NCBI GenBank assembly: GCA_003667865.1 | Contig: CP033051.1 | Location: forward strand, 3,784,001-3,848,000 | From: Rossellomorea marisflavi | GTDB taxonomy: Bacteria; Bacillota; Bacilli; Bacillales; Bacillaceae_B | DNA length: 64,000 bases | Direction: 5' to 3' | Shown here: positions 48,851 to 57,999 of the stretch, piece after piece | Numbering within the stretch: the first letter of the stretch is position 1 | How the letters are laid out: the number at the start of each line of letters is the position of its first letter | Position numbers and translations under genes: made by a program | Notes under the pieces: model-generated | Told to the model about the DNA's origin: nothing | The model's database searches: none | Seen by the model: only the letters and a program-made list of their open reading frames with translations

Positions 48851-51082
48851 TTAACTATGGCAGCTTTCACACTCATCTATATCTTGACTTGAAGTAGACC
48901 GAATATAATATGTTGTTTTCAATCCGGATTTCCATGCATCAAGATGGATGTCTAAAAGTGCTTTGGCTTTTATATCGTTTCTTACATATAGATTAAACGA
49001 TATCGATTGATCGATATGTTTTTGACGTTTTGAGTTTTGGCTTATGCTCCAGTGCTGATCAACATTGTAGGCTGTCTTATAGAACCATGTTGTACTTGGA
49101 GAAAGGTCTGGTGCTGTTACCGGAATCTTATAGTCCTTCTTTTCTTCTGAATATTCGAGTCTGAATATTGGATCAATGCTTGCTGATGATCCTGCTAATA
49201 TGGAAGTAGATGAATTCGGCGCAACAGCCATTAAATACCCATTACGGATTCCTTTATCTGTAACCTCTTTTTCAAGCTGTTGCCATTTATCTGATGTATA
49301 GCCTCTTTTCTTAAAATAATGGCCATTAGACCAGTCTGATCCTTCGAAATAAGGGTATGCGCCTTTTTCTTGAGCCAACTCTTTACTTGCCGAAATTGTG
49401 AGGTAAGCAATTTGGTCATAAAGTTCATCACAATACTCTACAGCCTCTTCGCTTTCCCACTTGATCCCTTTCAGGGCAAGAAGGTGATGCCAACCAAACG
49501 TTCCTAGTCCAATACCACGGTAATTCTGATTCGTTAATTGTGCTTGCAGGACCGGAATTTCATTGATGTCAATGACGTTGTCTAACATCCTTACTTGAAT
49601 TGGAATAAGTCTCTCAAGGACATTCTCCATCACACTTTTTGCTAAAGAAATGGAAGATAGATTACATACTACAAAATCACCTGGTTTCTTGTATGTAATA
49701 ATCCGCCCATCTGAAACCCTTTCTTCTTCTAAGACGGTTGGGCTCATATTTTGTGTGATTTCAGTACATAAATTACTACAATAAACCATTCCCTTATGAG
49801 TATTGGCATTTAATCGGTTCACAGTGTCACGATAGAACATATACGGCGTTCCTGTCTCGAGCTGTGATACCATAATAGATTTGAAGATCTCAATTGCAGG
49901 GACTATATTACGTGATAGTGAAGGATGGTTGACACATTCCCAATACTTTTGACGGAACGAACCCTCTCCTTGTGCCTCATCAAAGTAATCCTCTAGTGAA
50001 TACCCCATCACCCGTCTTACTTCATGAGGATCAAATAAATACCAATCCGCTCTATTTTCTACCTGTTCCATGAATATATCTGGAATGCATACTCCCGTAA
50101 ATAAATCATGTGTTCGTTGACGCTCATCACCATTATTTAATTTTGCGTCGAGAAACGAAAAGATGTCCTTATGCCAAACATCTAAGTAAACAGCAATAGC
50201 TCCTTGTCTTTGTCCCAATTGATCAACCGAAACTGCCGTATTATTCAGTTGTTTCATCCATGGAATAACACCAGAACTAACACCCTTAAACCCTTTAATA
50301 TCGCTTCCTCGACTGCGAATTTTCCCAAGATATATTCCGATACCACCGCCATTTTTACTTAGCGTTGATACATCTGTATTCGAATCATAAATACTCCTTA
50401 GGTCATCTTCAATGGTGTCAATGAAACAGCTAGAAAGCTGACCATAGCTTTTCCCTGCATTAGCTAATGTTGGAGTTGCGACTGTCATATAAAGATTTGA
50501 AAGTGCCCAATATGCTTCTTTAATGAGATCTATACGTTTATTCGTAGGTTCATTTTGTAGAAGTGTCATCGCAATAATCATAAAACGCTCTTGAGGTAAT
50601 TCAAAGAACGCTCCAGCCTGTGATTTTGCTAAATAACGTTCAGCTATTGTTAGAATTCCGATATATGTAAATAGCTCATCCTTATTAGGCGCTATTACTT
50701 TTTCTAATTCATTAATCTCTTCTTTAGAATAGGTTTGCACTAGTAATGGATCATAGATGCCAATCTCTACTAATCTTTCAATTAACTCATAAAAAGAACC
50801 ATAACCCTTTTCTGATTGGGTCCCTCTAGACGCAGCACTTAAACGGTATAACCGTTTTAAATAAATGTTTGCAGCAACATAGGTCCAATCTGGCTCTCTA
50901 CTATTGATTCTTTCCAAAGCAGTTAGAATAAGCAAATTCTCTACTTGATCAGTTGTCATTTCTTTCACTTCAAGCGTTGTGGTTACTTTCTCTTTGTACG
51001 AAGTAAAATCAATCTGACTATGCTTCTGCTCCAATTCAATTAACAATTCATGAACACGGTAATTTTCTGTAACGATACTCAT
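48851..51082 (-). CDS. nrdA: Class I ribonucleotide reductase, alpha subunit
   Basis: 743 residues. Reduces ribonucleoside diphosphates. Active-site set complete: Cys in LSSCFIDT, SNLCTEI (Asn, Cys, Glu), Cys in VVCNLSSISLA, the Tyr-Tyr radical relay in TTYYIRS and the C-terminal redox pair CESC. The first 60 residues do not show a complete ATP-cone, so overall dATP inhibition may be absent or altered. The ATG overlaps the thioesterase stop by four bases and has AAGGGGA seven bases upstream. Confidence 0.94.
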   Translation of the reverse strand: MSIVTENYRVHELLIELEQKHSQIDFTSYKEKVTTTLEVKEMTTDQVENLLILTALERINSREPDWTYVAANIYLKRLYRLSAASRGTQSEKGYGSFYELIERLVEIGIYDPLLVQTYSKEEINELEKVIAPNKDELFTYIGILTIAERYLAKSQAGAFFELPQERFMIIAMTLLQNEPTNKRIDLIKEAYWALSNLYMTVATPTLANAGKSYGQLSSCFIDTIEDDLRSIYDSNTDVSTLSKNGGGIGIYLGKIRSRGSDIKGFKGVSSGVIPWMKQLNNTAVSVDQLGQRQGAIAVYLDVWHKDIFSFLDAKLNNGDERQRTHDLFTGVCIPDIFMEQVENRADWYLFDPHEVRRVMGYSLEDYFDEAQGEGSFRQKYWECVNHPSLSRNIVPAIEIFKSIMVSQLETGTPYMFYRDTVNRLNANTHKGMVYCSNLCTEITQNMSPTVLEEERVSDGRIITYKKPGDFVVCNLSSISLAKSVMENVLERLIPIQVRMLDNVIDINEIPVLQAQLTNQNYRGIGLGTFGWHHLLALKGIKWESEEAVEYCDELYDQIAYLTISASKELAQEKGAYPYFEGSDWSNGHYFKKRGYTSDKWQQLEKEVTDKGIRNGYLMAVAPNSSTSILAGSSASIDPIFRLEYSEEKKDYKIPVTAPDLSPSTTWFYKTAYNVDQHWSISQNSKRQKHIDQSISFNLYVRNDIKAKALLDIHLDAWKSGLKTTYYIRSTSSQDIDECESCHS

Positions 51083-51573
51083 TGTAAGTCCCCTTCTCGT
51101 TTTGTTTGCTCATTTCTCATTTCTAAACGACGCCGTTTTCTAACTTGTGCTGTTTTAAACAACTCTTTCTCCTCTTCTGTTTCTGGAATGACTCCAGGAA
51201 CCGGTGAAGGTACTCCTTTTGAATCCTTTGCAACCATAGTTAGAATAGACGTTGTTGTTAAGGTTCTCGTAGAAGTTTTGAGATTTTCGCTTTCCACTTT
51301 TACAAACACCTCCATTGATGTTCTTCCTGTAGAAATGACAAACGCCTCTAACGTCAAAATATCTCCAACCTCTGCAGAAGATAAGAAATTCACTCGATCA
51401 ATTGATGCAGTAACAACGACTTTCCTACTGTGTTTCATGGCTGAAATGGCAGCAATCTCATCAATATAAGATAAAACCGTACCACCAAAGATTGTTCCCA
51501 TATGGTTTGTGTCTGGTGGCAAAACAAGACGTGTCTGAATTGTTCGCGACACATTTGAAGATAAAGCATTCAT
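51079..51573 (-). CDS. Acyl-CoA thioesterase (hotdog fold, YkhA-like)
   Basis: About 164 residues. Hotdog thioesterase of the cytosolic acyl-CoA hydrolase type: LVLPPDTNHMGTIFGGTVLSYIDEIAAISAMKHS, VTASIDRVNFLSSAEVGDI. C-terminal tail is basic (KRRRLEMRNEQTKRE). It is the first gene of the riboswitch transcript and ends in an ATGA overlap with nrdA, an unexpected partner. Start ATG 51573 lies seven bases after GGGAG; the ATG at 51579 is too close. Confidence 0.9.
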   Translation of the reverse strand: MNALSSNVSRTIQTRLVLPPDTNHMGTIFGGTVLSYIDEIAAISAMKHSRKVVVTASIDRVNFLSSAEVGDILTLEAFVISTGRTSMEVFVKVESENLKTSTRTLTTTSILTMVAKDSKGVPSPVPGVIPETEEEKELFKTAQVRKRRRLEMRNEQTKREGDLQ

Positions 51574-51621
51574 GTTCATTCTCCCTTTCGTAATTTACAG
51601 CTTAGAGAGAAAATGGGAAAT

Positions 51622-51644: not shown

Positions 51645-51744
51645 GTTATAAACGTTGATATACTAATAGACAACTAGATTTTAAGGGCCTACCAATGTAT
51701 CCTCGTTATACCTTCCCAATTCCCGAAGAAGATAATACGCTATA

Positions 51745-51912
51745 AATAAGGCAGGTCTCCTGACTTGTGCTTCTTCCTACTCTAAGACCTTCCCATCTCT
51801 AGATAGACAGTGGATACTCCTTAGTTCGTCAGCACTTACAGTTGCGGGGACAGCTCTGGATTTACACCAGATTCCCTATTATGTCTTTAGTAGACACCCT
51901 ATTTATCGGCTA
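51745..51912 (-). promoter_or_regulatory. Cobalamin riboswitch
   Basis: Minus-strand aptamer with the conserved blocks GGGAATCTGGTGTAAATCC, GCTGTCCCCGCAACTGTAAG (51836-51855), CCACTG, and the B12 box AAGTCAGGAGACCTGCC near 51750-51768. Controls thioesterase-nrdA-nrdB. High adenosylcobalamin is expected to switch the operon off. The remaining sequence between 51913 and 52177 is AT-rich and holds no clear signals beyond the lipoprotein promoter region. Confidence 0.95.
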
Positions 51913-52177
51913 ATTCAATATGTAGTTATTTACTGGTTACAAAACACTAAATATTGTGTTCTATAGAAAATAATAAAGCACCTATACGACAAATTCAACC
52001 ATTATTTTTATCTTTCGTCTAGTTATTTTTTCACTACATGATTCCTCCGATAACTATAAACCTTGGTGGCATTAGCTTTTCATTCAATACGAAGAAAAAT
52101 TTTTTTTCTAATTAAACATTTTAGCGGACGAGCTTGAATATATTTTTCTATGAATTTTAATATTAAGGAGAGTGTCT

Positions 52178-52516: not shown

Positions 52517-52628
52517 TTAACTCTAATTTCAGCTTCAGCTATAAATAGTACTAAAAAAATCTAGTAACCAATAGGATATTATAAGCAATACTTTTCATAG
52601 AGATAATTAAAAATCTAACTCCTTAATA

Positions 52629-52666
52629 AAAAGTCTCACTGTTTAAAAGTAAACAATGAGACTTTT
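52629..52666. terminator. Bidirectional terminator
   Basis: AAAAGTCTCA...GTTTA / TAAAC...TGAGACTTTT around a four-base loop, T run on the plus side and A run on the other. Ends the metal-ATPase operon. Confidence 0.85.
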
Positions 52667-52672
52667 TTATCT

Positions 52673-52921
52673 TTATATAGCTTGTGATTCTGTGTAAGTG
52701 TTGAGTTTGGATTCTACCCAATCATGAAATAAATCATAAGCTAAATCTAGGTTATCTACACTGTAAATTTTCTTACCTTCATATGATTTAATATGAGACG
52801 GTAGTGAATTACACGATAAGAAAACATCATAGCTACCATGATCACTAAAAATACCAATCGCTTCGATAATATGATTGTATTTATAATACCCTAGATATAT
52901 GGTTTGATTATCCTCTTTCAT
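52673..52921 (-). CDS. Last gene of the ATPase operon, unknown, 82 aa
   Basis: About 82 residues from ATG 52921 behind AGGTGATGTTG. Soluble, alpha/beta pattern: TIYLGYYKYNHIIEAIGIFSDHGSYDVFLSCN, then YEGKKIYSVDNLDLAYDLFHDWVESKL. No family recognised. Location 30 bases after the 77-aa membrane protein makes it part of the HxxPGRxR operon. It has several His/Asp residues and one Cys but no known metal motif. Confidence 0.65.
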   Translation of the reverse strand: MKEDNQTIYLGYYKYNHIIEAIGIFSDHGSYDVFLSCNSLPSHIKSYEGKKIYSVDNLDLAYDLFHDWVESKLNTYTESQAI

Positions 52922-52951
52922 CAACATCACCTAATTCAGTTATTTACACGA

Positions 52952-53185
52952 TTAATTTGTAACCCCCGCTTGTTTCTCAGCAATTAAGTCTTCTAATCTT
53001 TCTTTTTGTAGTGCTAGCTCTTCCAGAGTAGGCTCTGCCTTTGTGCCTCCGGAAAAACCAAATTGTGGTGCTTGTTGAATAAGGTTTTGAAGCTGTCCGT
53101 TGTTTTGTTCATACAATCTGTAACCAACAGCTCCTACTACAGTTCCAGATAGAAAACCCATTAAAAAATCTTTGTTTAAAGGCAT
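52952..53185 (-). CDS. Membrane-anchored small protein, 77 aa (PacL/YtxH-like layout)
   Basis: N-terminal transmembrane helix (LMGFLSGTVVGAVGYRLY), a polar linker, and a C-terminal charged helix (TLEELALQKERLEDLIAEKQ). This layout recalls the small DUF1490 PacL proteins that scaffold mycobacterial CtpC-type ATPases, or YtxH-type anchors; homology is not established. It has no Cys or His, so it cannot be a metal chaperone of the PacL tail type. Site AGGGGGAAATTAGT before ATG. Gap of 31 bases from the preceding gene. Confidence 0.7.
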   Translation of the reverse strand: MPLNKDFLMGFLSGTVVGAVGYRLYEQNNGQLQNLIQQAPQFGFSGGTKAEPTLEELALQKERLEDLIAEKQAGVTN

Positions 53186-53216
53186 ACTAATTTCCCCCTA
53201 ATTAATGTTTGTTTAT

Positions 53217-53789
53217 TTATTGATAAAGAAGCTGTTTGCTTCTTCTCAAATCGTTAAATACCTCTATCAAATTAACAATCCAAGTTACAGCAGCTACCTG
53301 AAGAATATTTTGTGCTCCTAGTGATAACATGGAAATGATACCCGTTATTACATCAGGATGACTTAGTTTATTTTCTCCGTGGGAAAGCACTGTATATGAA
53401 GTAGATATGACAACCAAGTAATCAAATGCATCAGGACGACCACCAATGTTTCCCCTTAAAAAGGCAGCCAAAAGTAGGCAACCTGATACTAGCGAACGGA
53501 ATAGATCCTTTCTCAAATTCTCTCGTTCTGGAATTTCCCTATAAGGGTCTATATTGGTCTGTTGGAAAAATAAACTAATATACCGGAGTACATGCTTATG
53601 AGTTAATTCACTGGAATTGTACTGAATTACTATAGAACGGATTATTGGCTCTATTCTAACAGAGTCAATTCCTCTAATAGATTCAAACATCTCCTCAATA
53701 GCTGAGTACTCTTTCGTATTTGCTAGAGCCGGTATTATCAATCGTATCCTTCCAGGTATTAAATGAATGATCTTGTAGTTGAAGTACAT
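53217..53789 (-). CDS. HMA_2-like membrane protein, truncated-ATPase-like
   Basis: 190 residues. N-terminal HMA_2-like ferredoxin fold with HLIPGRIRL (His9, PGR 12-14) and the second half strand pattern SIRGIDSVRIEPIIRSIVIQYN; then three or four membrane helices including DVITGIISMLSLGAQNILQVAAVTWIVNLIEV, which resembles the first membrane region of the neighbouring ATPase. It has no catalytic P-type domains, so it is a paralogue of the ATPase N-terminal third. The ATG 53789 is eight bases after GGGAGG and lies 95 bases inside the end of the ATPase gene, in another frame. Confidence 0.8.
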   Translation of the reverse strand: MYFNYKIIHLIPGRIRLIIPALANTKEYSAIEEMFESIRGIDSVRIEPIIRSIVIQYNSSELTHKHVLRYISLFFQQTNIDPYREIPERENLRKDLFRSLVSGCLLLAAFLRGNIGGRPDAFDYLVVISTSYTVLSHGENKLSHPDVITGIISMLSLGAQNILQVAAVTWIVNLIEVFNDLRRSKQLLYQ

Positions 53790-55881
53790 TCATTTTACCT
53801 CCCGTGAAAATCAATTTTGCACTATTTATAACAACACCTATTGTAGCTGCATTGTGGATTGCAGCCCCAAGGATTGGTTGTATCACTCCAAGTGTACCTA
53901 GGGAAATTGCAACTGTATTAATAAATAAAGTTGCTAGAATATTTTGTTTTATAACGGTCATTGTTCTTTGAGAAAGCTTTACTACTTCAGACAATAATAA
54001 TGGGTTATCTGAATGAATGACCACATCGGCTGTTTCCATAGCAATATCTGTCTTTTTCCCACCAAGCGTTACACCAATATCAGCATAAGCTAAGGCAGGA
54101 GCATCGTTAATACCATCACCAACCATCATAATTGTACGGTCTTTTTGTTTTTTTAAGTATCTGACATAGCTTGCTTTTTCCTGTGGCATTACCTCAGCAA
54201 AAAACTCATCGACTGATGTCCGATTTGCTACTTTCTTAGCGGATTGTTTATAATCGCCTGTAAGCATGACAACTTCATCAATACCATTTCTTCTCATTTG
54301 GTTAATACACCTATTCATCCCTTGCCGAACTTGGTCTTCTATCTCAATGATACCGATTATTTCATTTTCTTTTGCTACGAAAACACCCGTATTATAATTG
54401 GTTTCCAGTTTGATTTCGTAGTCATCCATATATCCCCTGCTACCAACGAGAATAAGCTCATCATTTACTATGACGGATAATCCTTTACCTACAACATTTT
54501 CAAAGGTTTCATCATCGTGTTCAGGAACTTCAATTGCTCGATATTGCGCTTCAGATCGAATGGCTTCGGCAATCGGATGTGTTGCATGCTCCTCTGCAGA
54601 TGCAGCAAATGCTAAAACATCTTTTTCAGAATATCCATTAAATGTTTGAATATGGGTCACAATTGGCTTCCCTTCGGTAATGGTACCGGTCTTATCAAAA
54701 ATCACTGTGTTCACTTTAGATAATGTTTCCAAAGTTTGACCGCCTTTTACAAGTACTCCCTTTCTCGCAGCCTTACCAATTGAAGCTGAAATAGCTGTTG
54801 CGGTTGAGAGCTTTACTCCACAAACATAGTCAATAACAAGCATATTCAGTACTCTATTCCAATCCCTCGTAACAACATAAATAACGGCTGCTAGAATAAA
54901 GGAGATTGGTACAACCTTCTTAGTAAATCTTTCTGACATCATTTGAATGGAAGCTTGCTTCTCTTGGGCTTCTTCAATTAATTTTATCATTCTGTTAACA
55001 GCAAGATCGTCCCCTACTTTGTCAACCCTTAACGAGATCTTTCCTTCCGTTACAATACTTCCAGCATACACATAGGAATCTTTGGATACATGTACAGGCA
55101 TATGTTCACCTGTAATGGCGGACTGATCAACTTGCCCATTATACATGAGGACATTTCCATCAAAAGGTATCTTTTCTCCTTGGAACACGACAATTTGGTC
55201 TCCAACTTTTATTTCATCTGTTTGTACCTTAACCTCCTGACCACTTTCTGTGATAAGCCAAGCAAAAGGAGTATCTACTTCCATCATCTCTCTAACAAAG
55301 CCTCTTGTACGATTCATGGTATACTCTGTTAGCAATTCACTAATTGTTGACATAATGTAAATCACTAGTGCAGATTGAGGACTTCCTTTTATGATAGATG
55401 CAACAATAGCCGCAGTGGTTAAAGTATCAGGGTTTGGTTTCGTAATAGATTTTAATCCATTTCGAATAATGTCTCTACAAGAATACAAAATGGCTACAGT
55501 CGTTGGATTTAAAACCCCAATAGGCGTAGATAATATGAAGGGAACTGTCCAGAATTTATTCAATAAGAATGTTCCCATCACAATTCCAAGATCCTTAATA
55601 TGCCTCCGCATATTTTCTTTTGATTCTTCATTTACATTTTTTGTGCTCTGAAATGTGTTTCTTTCAAAAATAGAGTGAATGTAAGCTAAGCACAATTCTG
55701 GAAATTTTTTGTACGTGTGATAAATTACAACACTACCAGTCAAGGTTGAATAGGTTGCAGAAATAATTCCAGGTATGGATCTTATTGTTGCTTCAACGAC
55801 CTCTGGTAAAAAAACTTCATTATGAATCCTTATTCGTGTTCTTCCTGGAACCGAATGTAACACCGTACATACACTACTCAT
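53695..55881 (-). CDS. P1B-type heavy-metal transporting ATPase, atypical
   Basis: 728 residues. N-terminal HMA_2-like domain with HSVPGRTR (His9), membrane helices, actuator with SAITGEHMP (TGE 257-259), the phosphorylated Asp396 in VIFDKTGTITEG, HP at 435-436, MLTGD and MVGDGINDAPAL. So it is catalytically complete. The usual CPC in the ion-path helix is replaced by DYVCGVKLSTAT (352-354 YVC, Lys357), without the Pro; the second usual signature is HNAATIGVVINSAKL. Metal unknown; neighbours suggest Zn or Mn. The last 35 residues (after TGGK) overlap the next gene and look adventitious. ATG behind AGAGG. Confidence 0.9.
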   Translation of the reverse strand: MSSVCTVLHSVPGRTRIRIHNEVFLPEVVEATIRSIPGIISATYSTLTGSVVIYHTYKKFPELCLAYIHSIFERNTFQSTKNVNEESKENMRRHIKDLGIVMGTFLLNKFWTVPFILSTPIGVLNPTTVAILYSCRDIIRNGLKSITKPNPDTLTTAAIVASIIKGSPQSALVIYIMSTISELLTEYTMNRTRGFVREMMEVDTPFAWLITESGQEVKVQTDEIKVGDQIVVFQGEKIPFDGNVLMYNGQVDQSAITGEHMPVHVSKDSYVYAGSIVTEGKISLRVDKVGDDLAVNRMIKLIEEAQEKQASIQMMSERFTKKVVPISFILAAVIYVVTRDWNRVLNMLVIDYVCGVKLSTATAISASIGKAARKGVLVKGGQTLETLSKVNTVIFDKTGTITEGKPIVTHIQTFNGYSEKDVLAFAASAEEHATHPIAEAIRSEAQYRAIEVPEHDDETFENVVGKGLSVIVNDELILVGSRGYMDDYEIKLETNYNTGVFVAKENEIIGIIEIEDQVRQGMNRCINQMRRNGIDEVVMLTGDYKQSAKKVANRTSVDEFFAEVMPQEKASYVRYLKKQKDRTIMMVGDGINDAPALAYADIGVTLGGKKTDIAMETADVVIHSDNPLLLSEVVKLSQRTMTVIKQNILATLFINTVAISLGTLGVIQPILGAAIHNAATIGVVINSAKLIFTGGKMNVLQLQDHSFNTWKDTIDNTGSSKYERVLSY

Positions 55882-55896
55882 AAGGGAATCCTCTCA

Positions 55897-56418
55897 TTAC
55901 TTTTTATTTGTAATAATGGTATATGCCCAATATAGTAAACTACTTGAGAATGCTGGATTCGTTGGGATTCTAACAACACCATTAATGATTAATATGACAG
56001 ATAATAAGGAATCAATATCAATTTTTCCTGCACTTTGTTTTTTCATGGTGCTATTAACGGTACTTACAACATTTTTAAGAATATTCATTAAATCCGATTG
56101 AAGTTCTGGGTATGTAGCAATGGATGTTTGAACTGCACTTTTTACGATGTGGTCGAATTGCTCTGGTGTGAGGGTCTGGGAATGAAATGTTAGTAGTAAA
56201 CTCCCGGTAATGGGTGAAGCATGTGCCTCTTTTACGATTGGTATGGATTTAAATACATGCATTAAATTATTGGTGGTTTGTTCATATTTCCATCTATCAC
56301 ATTGAAGCCTTACCCTACCAGGAACAGCATGAAGAACATGAACTTTCTGGTCTTGTATTCCGCTCATAATCTTTGGAGCTAAGAGAGATGCTCCTATCCC
56401 TAGAATTGTATTTATCAT
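55897..56418 (-). CDS. HMA_2-like protein with C-terminal membrane helices, 173 aa
   Basis: N-terminal hydrophobic stretch (NTILGIGASLLAPKIM), then an HMA_2-like fold with HAVPGRVRL (His30, PGR 33-35) and the closing strand ASPITGSLLLTFH, then a linker and a C-terminal membrane part (SLLSVILIINGVVRI, SSLLYWAYTII). No CxxC metal site. Gap of 15 bases to the ATPase gene and 16 from the 98-aa gene: clear operon. Probably an accessory of the ATPase; family known only as HMA_2-domain proteins. Confidence 0.8.
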   Translation of the reverse strand: MINTILGIGASLLAPKIMSGIQDQKVHVLHAVPGRVRLQCDRWKYEQTTNNLMHVFKSIPIVKEAHASPITGSLLLTFHSQTLTPEQFDHIVKSAVQTSIATYPELQSDLMNILKNVVSTVNSTMKKQSAGKIDIDSLLSVILIINGVVRIPTNPAFSSSLLYWAYTIITNKK

Positions 56419-56434
56419 ATAGAGGCTCCTTGTC

Positions 56435-56731
56435 TTACGAGTACTTTTCTATAATGGAAAGCCAACGCGTTATTGAATCTGATTGATTAATAGCTTCATG
56501 TTTATATAGGATTAAAGCAGTGCCTGTTTCTTTTGTAAATTCGATTGAAGTAATATCAGGATCTAATGCCATTTCTGACATTAATAACAATACCTTATCT
56601 TCGTTTGTCTTCCATTCTGGAAACCCTAATCGAATCCTACCTGGTAGTGCATGTCTTACTTGGATTCCATATTTTCTTAATATAGATTCAATTTTTTTAT
56701 TTACCAATTTATTATGTATTTTCTTAATCAT
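56435..56731 (-). CDS. HMA_2-like soluble protein, 98 aa
   Basis: First gene of the operon. Single HMA_2-like domain: RHALPGRIRL (His27, PGR 30-32), DPDITSIEFTKETGTALILY as the second strand, then a helix SDSITRWLSIIEKY. Preceded by a basic helix (KKIHNKLVNKKIESILRKYG). No Cys at all. ATG behind AGGTGATGTAG; promoter at 56757-56785. Likely a cytosolic partner or docking module of the ATPase. Confidence 0.8.
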   Translation of the reverse strand: MIKKIHNKLVNKKIESILRKYGIQVRHALPGRIRLGFPEWKTNEDKVLLLMSEMALDPDITSIEFTKETGTALILYKHEAINQSDSITRWLSIIEKYS

Positions 56732-56756: not shown

Positions 56757-56785
56757 ATATTACTACTTTATGCTTATCGTGTAAA
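56757..56785 (-). promoter_or_regulatory. Promoter of the HxxPGRxR operon
   Basis: Minus strand TTTACA (56780-56785), 17 bases, TAATAT (56757-56762), 26 bases before the ATG of the first gene. No obvious Zur, MntR or Fur box was seen nearby. Confidence 0.65.
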
Positions 56786-57276: not shown

Positions 57277-57999
57277 ATGAGCATATTACCTATATTAATG
57301 ACAGCTTTTTGTACAAGCGTTGGAGCATTACCGATATTATTCATTAAAGATATTTCCCATAAGGGTAAGGACGTATTGCTAGCCTTTACTGCAGGAATTA
57401 TGGTTGCTGCATCCTCTTATGGATTAATTCCCTCTGCCCTAAAGTTATCTAATATGATGACTCTCATAGTAGGAATCTTAATCGGCACGATCGTTCTAAC
57501 TTTTCTTGAAAGTGTAGTTCCTCACCATGATTTAGATCATTCAGAGAATAATGTAAAGCAATCGAGTGTAATTTTGTTTTTAATCGCAATGTCCATACAT
57601 AATTTACCTGAGGGACTTTCTGTAGGGATCAGCAATGCAAACACTCAGATAGAATTTGGAAATCTTGTTTCATTCGCAATAGGATTACAGAACGTACCAG
57701 AAGGGTTCTTAGTTGCTTTGTTTCTAATTACACAACAAGTTAGTAGAATGAAAGCACTCTTCTTCGCCACACTTACAGGACTGATTGAATTTATTGCAGG
57801 GCTGATTGGTATTTTATTCGGCGAATCCTTTGAACAAATTATCCCATATGGTCTAGCATTTGCGGCAGGCTCCATGTTGTATGTTGTCTATAAAGAATTA
57901 ATTCCTGAAAGCCATGGAGATGGGCATGAACGTGCTGCTACCTTTACCTTTATTCTTGGATTTATCACAATGGTATTTTTAACCGATTGGTTCCGATAA
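57277..57999 (+). CDS. ZIP family metal transporter (GufA/ZupT-like)
   Basis: 240 residues, eight transmembrane helices. Signature HNLPEGLSVGI in helix IV and QNVPEGFLVALF in helix V mark GufA-type ZIP proteins; the cytosolic loop between helices III and IV has VVPHHDLDHSE, a His-rich metal loop. Likely takes up Zn or other divalent metals. ATG behind AGGAGG. Divergently placed to the ATPase operon, so the two may form a metal homeostasis locus. Confidence 0.93.
   Translation: MSILPILMTAFCTSVGALPILFIKDISHKGKDVLLAFTAGIMVAASSYGLIPSALKLSNMMTLIVGILIGTIVLTFLESVVPHHDLDHSENNVKQSSVILFLIAMSIHNLPEGLSVGISNANTQIEFGNLVSFAIGLQNVPEGFLVALFLITQQVSRMKALFFATLTGLIEFIAGLIGILFGESFEQIIPYGLAFAAGSMLYVVYKELIPESHGDGHERAATFTFILGFITMVFLTDWFR

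Follow-up and report, generated by a model that had tools for sequence, protein, structure and literature searches.

A strictly conserved five-gene module around a P1B-6 ATPase in Rossellomorea marisflavi, probably a divergent ferrosome-type metal-sequestration platform

An operon of Rossellomorea marisflavi raises the question of why one P-type ATPase should be accompanied by three separate proteins that carry the same HxxPGRxR motif as its own N-terminus. The operon lies in a window of 64,000 nucleotides (contig CP033051.1 of assembly GCA_003667865.1, forward-strand positions 3,784,001 to 3,848,000), to which all coordinates below refer. Our analysis identifies a real and strictly conserved five-gene module around the pump, and we put at about 60% the chance that it is a divergent ferrosome-type (fez-like) platform for metal sequestration, probably working like a ferrosome operon.

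Six adjacent ORFs lie on the minus strand, and re-reading them returned the coordinates given by an earlier sequence-only reading of this DNA. In order, they encode a 98-aa stand-alone HMA_2 domain (gene A, 56435–56731; HALPGRIR), a 173-aa HMA_2 protein (gene B, 55897–56418; HAVPGRVR), a P-type ATPase of 728 aa with an HMA_2-like N-terminus (53695–55881; HSVPGRTR), a 190-aa HMA_2 protein with about four membrane helices (gene C, 53217–53789; HLIPGRIR), a 77-aa membrane-anchored protein (gene D, 52952–53185) and an 82-aa soluble protein (52673–52921; 85 aa if started at an upstream GTG). The intergenic gaps are 16, 15, −95, 31 and 21 nt, the negative value being a 95-nt overlap (53695–53789) between the 190-aa gene and the 3' end of the ATPase gene; this overlap recurs in relatives at variable length (110 nt in locus L035, 52 nt in L013) and may reflect translational coupling or variation of the pump tail. 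The divergent ZIP transporter of the earlier reading was found at 57277–57999 on the plus strand (a ZIP-family divalent metal transporter; PF02535, E = 2e-22), outside the core. A sigma-A-like promoter on the upstream side (TTTACA-17-TAATAT, 56757–56785, minus strand) is a consensus match only (9/12), and sigma-A-like sites in the promoter region show no excess over shuffles. An inverted repeat 3' of the last gene, with T-runs on both sides (52628–52668; AAAAAGTCTCA...TGAGACTTTTTT, read directly), is likely a bidirectional terminator closing the operon; a terminator scan with a loop limit of 3–8 nt, which a larger loop may exceed, did not report it.

Among window ORFs of at least 50 aa, H..PGR.R occurs in only four cases, all in the operon (composition expects 0.002), and CxxC is absent from all four proteins, as the sequence-only reading had claimed. 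That reading had also assigned all four to an HMA_2-like fold and had proposed a profile search as a check: against the curated Pfam cut-off of 30 bits for HMA_2 (PF19991), the similarity of the three small proteins was confirmed (gene A, 39.9 bits; gene B, 74.5 bits; gene C, 43.0 bits), and the ATPase N-terminus fell below the cut-off (23.2 bits, E = 7.5e-5). Within the host genome, HMA_2 matches above the cut-off are confined to the operon. Over a wide set of sequences, gene A keeps PGR.R and gene B keeps G-R-x-R without exception, while the motif histidine varies, and a fez-like Azospirillum protein has AVPGRIR, without the histidine. Because the PGRxR core is invariant and the histidine is not, a structural or docking role for the motif is favored over binding of metal by the histidine. 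The multi-protein docking platform around the pump envisaged in the earlier reading is plausible by analogy, and the three PGRxR/HMA_2 proteins would be paralogous to the N-terminal domain of the pump itself.

Relatives were drawn from named contigs and from genus, order, phylum and plasmid sets. The order 98 aa–173 aa–ATPase–190 aa–77 aa is identical in all 23 Bacillales-type clusters examined (19 loci, the Priestia megaterium plasmids pBM400 and p5_CACC119, and the genome L075, with L048 similar on a shorter contig), and an orthologue of gene A is present in every one. Across the 397 genomes of the order, stand-alone HMA_2 genes are found in 15/15 genomes with the ATPase versus 0/382 without it (P ~2e-27); the other HMA_2 matches in this set are frames of about 1,410–1,435 aa. 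The neighborhood survey that had been suggested as a check found a strictly conserved gene set around the ATPase, with one amendment: the six ORFs are adjacent as described, but the conserved set is one of five genes. The 82-aa gene, whose product has no Pfam match, is placed outside the core because its one clear homologue beside the module (43% identity) is in a single other genome, G216, where a ZinT-type protein then follows. The module has a scattered distribution (3 of 36 genomes in the genus set, 15 of 397 in the order) and the genes flanking it vary between lineages, a pattern that fits spread by horizontal transfer. Gene B is split into two frames in L045 (8045–8585) and L013 (8675–9206), which may be decay or sequencing error. 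Very large frames, about 1,410–1,540 aa long, also contain HMA_2 (G113, G167, G204, G415 and G078; L085:7438–12024 and L090:7735–12354); those of L085 and L090 are PGRxR-headed, have a P2-like P-type ATPase core and adjoin a P1B pump with CPC and HN.

The ATPase carries the catalytic motifs TGE257, DKTGT396, HP435 and GDGIND588. Its fourth transmembrane helix (TM4) has LVIDYVCGVKLSTATA in place of CPC (D351-Y-V-C354-G-V-K357-L, with proline absent), and TM6 carries H676-N677; HN in TM6 is a P1B6 feature, and CtpC, with HN and CPC, has been termed P1B6-like (Boudehen et al., PMC9374683). In a maximum-likelihood tree of 53 ATPases, the window pump belongs to a clade of 41 sequences without CPC (UFBoot 100). 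Its other members include the ATPases of the DUF6110 clusters L100, L101 and L103 and those encoded on plasmids of Azospirillum, Arcobacter, Vibrio and Cereibacter in operons of six genes or a similar make-up; the three other P1B pumps of the host genome fall outside the clade. Throughout the clade D351, C354 and HN are present (41/41), with K357 in 39/41, whereas A, C and G occupy positions 351, 354 and 357 in CPC-type relatives. The window ATPase is thus a P1B-6 pump, and with neither CPC nor SPC, identity with ZntA/CadA, CopA or PfeT was rejected. Residue 361 is never proline in the half of the clade formed by the Bacillales and the sister families f79/f110, so TM4 lacks both the CPC proline and the TP proline; a TM4 devoid of proline is unusual among the P1B ATPases compared.

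The partner proteins differ in how closely they resemble the pump. The AlphaFold2 model of gene C, of moderate confidence (pLDDT 70), shows a beta-beta-alpha-beta-beta-alpha domain followed by about four helices, and Foldseek recovers the HMA fold (Menkes domain 2, rmsd 1.7 over 63 columns; also CopZ and ATP7B). H137 and H144 of gene C are invariant. Over its whole length the gene C profile aligns with ATPase residues 1–215 (hhalign E = 3e-17), and its membrane part alone gives E = 0.0016 (score 25.1 versus 20.1 for the best of 30 shuffles); this alignment is suggestive, not proof, of an origin as a duplicated N-terminal half of the pump. Gene B has an N-terminal hydrophobic helix and a C-terminal hydrophobic hairpin (G147, P155, W164); its AlphaFold2 model is of low confidence (pLDDT 62), notably so outside the HMA_2 core, and a PDB sequence search returned no relative. 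The hairpin was also considered as a copy of pump helices, and no signal was obtained.

Gene D, compared over 33 sequences, has an invariant DF..G...G.V.G..GY glycine-zipper helix (G10, G14, G18 and G21 invariant) and a conserved C-terminal helix, QKExLEDxIA, and lacks a His or Cys metal-binding tail. It matches neither DUF1490 nor DUF6110 (PF19605; hhalign probability 0.35%), and no PF19605 match was found in its own genome. Of the relatives found, the YtxH-like protein encoded in fez-like operons is nearest, at hhalign E = 3.8e-5 but a probability of only 44%; common to both are the DF..G...G helix and a KERLED-type C-terminus (KERLED, KERMED or KEQMAD in the YtxH-like proteins).

These likenesses lead to the ferrosome operons. 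FezB, which is encoded with small partners, is reportedly a P1B-6 ATPase according to the original ferrosome abstracts, and to our knowledge all experimentally described ferrosomes are in anaerobically grown bacteria. In published summaries of the system, FezB is a putative transporter of ferrous iron and FezC a cytochrome of DUF4405-like type; FezA and FezB are known from C. difficile. The operons of Azospirillum (L105), Arcobacter (L107), Vibrio (L106) and Cereibacter (L104) plasmids are termed fez-like here by gene content, that is, by a P1B-6 ATPase with HMA_2/PGRxR, YtxH-like and DUF4405/FezC-like partners; HMA_2/PGRxR proteins are present in all four, as in the window operon, and a weak DUF4405/FezC-like segment was seen in two, those of Azospirillum and Arcobacter, the latter also having a rubrerythrin-like protein. 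In the sister clusters f79/f110, which belong to the window's phylum and whose gene content suggests Negativicutes, a FezC-like two-histidine membrane segment is fused to the gene A homologue (hhalign probability 95, E = 2e-8; score 46, with 40 block shuffles reaching no more than 23). FeoB adjoins the module in L009, L076, L077 and L082, and in L101 FeoA/FeoB, a DtxR-type regulator and a rubrerythrin-like gene adjoin a DUF6110–P1B6 pair. A protein in L086 (7405–7941), next to a PGRxR ATPase with CPC and HN, combines a weak rubrerythrin/ferritin-like match with a hydrophobic helix and a DUF5132-like segment and is a possible iron-storage partner of P1B-6-like pumps.

The window module shares with fez operons a pump from the clade of the fez-like ATPases, PGRxR/HMA_2 partners, a small transmembrane protein that may be YtxH-like, and related clusters with a FezC-like domain and Feo neighbors. 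It departs from them in having no FezC/DUF4405 domain (Pfam search) and no DUF6110 gene, for which reason we do not file it as a proven ferrosome operon; its HMA_2 partners number three and its five genes keep a fixed order, G355 and A361 replace A and P in TM4, a Fur box was not seen, the neighbors are of the Zn/Mn type and the lineage is one of aerobic spore-formers. A link between DUF6110, a PacL-like protein, and P1B6 ATPases in Firmicutes has been described (PMC9374683), and these pairs resemble the module in having a P1B-6 pump with D..C..KL and HN and a small membrane partner; unlike the module, the DUF6110 clusters are without the three HMA_2 proteins, and the 77-aa protein neither matches nor aligns with PF19605. 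The same five genes on P. megaterium pBM400 are annotated in RefSeq by domain only, as "HMA2 domain-containing protein".

Evidence on substrate and control points in two directions. The pump family and the Feo neighbors of related clusters suggest iron, whereas the Bacillales neighbors point to zinc or manganese as much as to iron: ZIP genes adjoin the module in the window, L009, L043 and L044, Zn/Mn ABC importers in L040 and L047 and a ZinT-type protein in L039, permease–TIGR03943 pairs recur among Bacillales neighbors, and a mer operon is near the module in L035. No Fur box was found upstream of 22 clusters or in the window region; the regions preceding the operon and its relatives, searched for Fur, Zur, PerR and MntR boxes, gave nothing convincing, and no riboswitch stood out there. 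On a P. megaterium plasmid (L073), the interval between the module and a divergent permease/TIGR03943 pair contains a sequence resembling a Zur box with 2 mismatches (ACGTAATGTTTACGA); it is situated some 262 bases upstream of gene A and nearer the pair. Elsewhere in the window, a cobalamin riboswitch (RF00174, 133 bits; 51733–51916, minus strand) precedes a thioesterase-like ORF (51079–51579) and a ribonucleotide reductase-like ORF (48851–51082), which suggests B12 control of a B12-independent reductase.

The alternative that deserves most weight, possible though doubtful in our estimate, is an effluxosome-type platform in the plasma membrane that exports Zn, Mn or Cd in the manner of CtpC/PacL, with the 77-aa protein clustering the pump, the PGRxR proteins docking on it and no organelle being formed. 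The sequence-only reading had drawn the same analogy with mycobacterial CtpC and its PacL proteins. PacL1 and CtpC of Mycobacterium combine an HN-type P1B ATPase with a small partner having a glycine-bearing transmembrane helix (PMC9374683, PMC13043812), and in PacL the transmembrane glycines serve association while the cytoplasmic segment contacts the pump's N-terminal domains (PMC13043812), a precedent for platform assembly through that domain; the layout of the 77-aa protein is of the same kind, and the Zn/Mn genes beside several Bacillales clusters, the occurrence of the module on plasmids and the nearby mer operon in L035 would suit such a role. The analogy holds for the platform concept and for HN, but it is remoter than that with the fez operons: CtpC has CPC, PacL is a DUF1490 protein with a metal-binding tail, and the Rhodococcus example (L074) has no HMA_2 proteins, whereas the window pump has no CPC and is separate in the tree from the CPC+HN group, grouping instead with fez-like and DUF6110 ATPases, a His or Cys metal-binding tail is missing from the 77-aa protein, and Feo genes adjoin related clusters. 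With neither a DUF1490 partner of this kind nor a CPC-type pump, the window operon was not assigned to the PacL effluxosomes.

The HMA fold of the gene C model, with Menkes domain 2, CopZ and ATP7B among its structural matches, could also mean that the PGRxR proteins are metallochaperones, supplying the pump with metal in the way that CopZ supplies CopA. We consider this improbable, as the proteins have no CxxC and no conserved cysteine, the motif histidine is not invariant, and membrane-spanning segments are present in two of the three. The best scores of the ATPase come from general heavy-metal ATPase models, as would those of an ordinary ZntA/CadA-like exporter with chance neighbors; strict conservation of the gene set, perfect co-occurrence and the absence of the CPC motif leave that explanation next to no likelihood, and we regard it as refuted by the gene-set conservation.

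The ferrosome-type reading is favored by the P1B-6 signature, the clade shared with fez-like ATPases, the FezC-like domain of the sister clusters, the FeoB neighbors and the co-occurrence; the lack of FezC or DUF6110, of a Fur or Zur box and of a riboswitch, together with the Zn/Mn neighbors and the anaerobic growth of the bacteria whose ferrosomes are described, speaks against it. On this reading the P1B-6 ATPase, as a relative of FezB, would move a divalent metal, most likely Fe2+ (alternatively Zn2+ or Mn2+), out of the cytosol and possibly into membrane compartments; the substrate, the direction of transport, the clustering and organelle formation are what we infer from the likenesses set out above. 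The PGRxR/HMA_2 proteins and the 77-aa glycine-zipper protein would bring pump molecules into clusters and give their membrane patch its shape: the 77-aa protein may gather pumps together, and by analogy with PacL the PGRxR domains may pack with the pump's own N-terminus. As a more tentative proposal, aerobic spore-forming Bacillales, including plasmid-bearing P. megaterium, might build a ferrosome-like compartment from the five-gene module, using copies of the pump's N-terminal domain rather than a FezC cytochrome as scaffold and a pump that works with a TM4 lacking the usual P1B proline.

If the ferrosome-type reading is correct, metal storage of this kind would not be limited to anaerobes, where it has been described, and would reach tractable aerobic Gram-positive bacteria; a sequenced P. 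megaterium plasmid carries the whole module. The PGRxR/HMA_2 domains, which at present have a domain name only, would gain a testable role in pump assembly, and the fields of the PacL effluxosome and the ferrosome would be linked through one P1B-6/P1B-6-like lineage. The pump, whose TM4 is free of proline, probes the extent to which a P1B ion-binding site can diverge from CPC.
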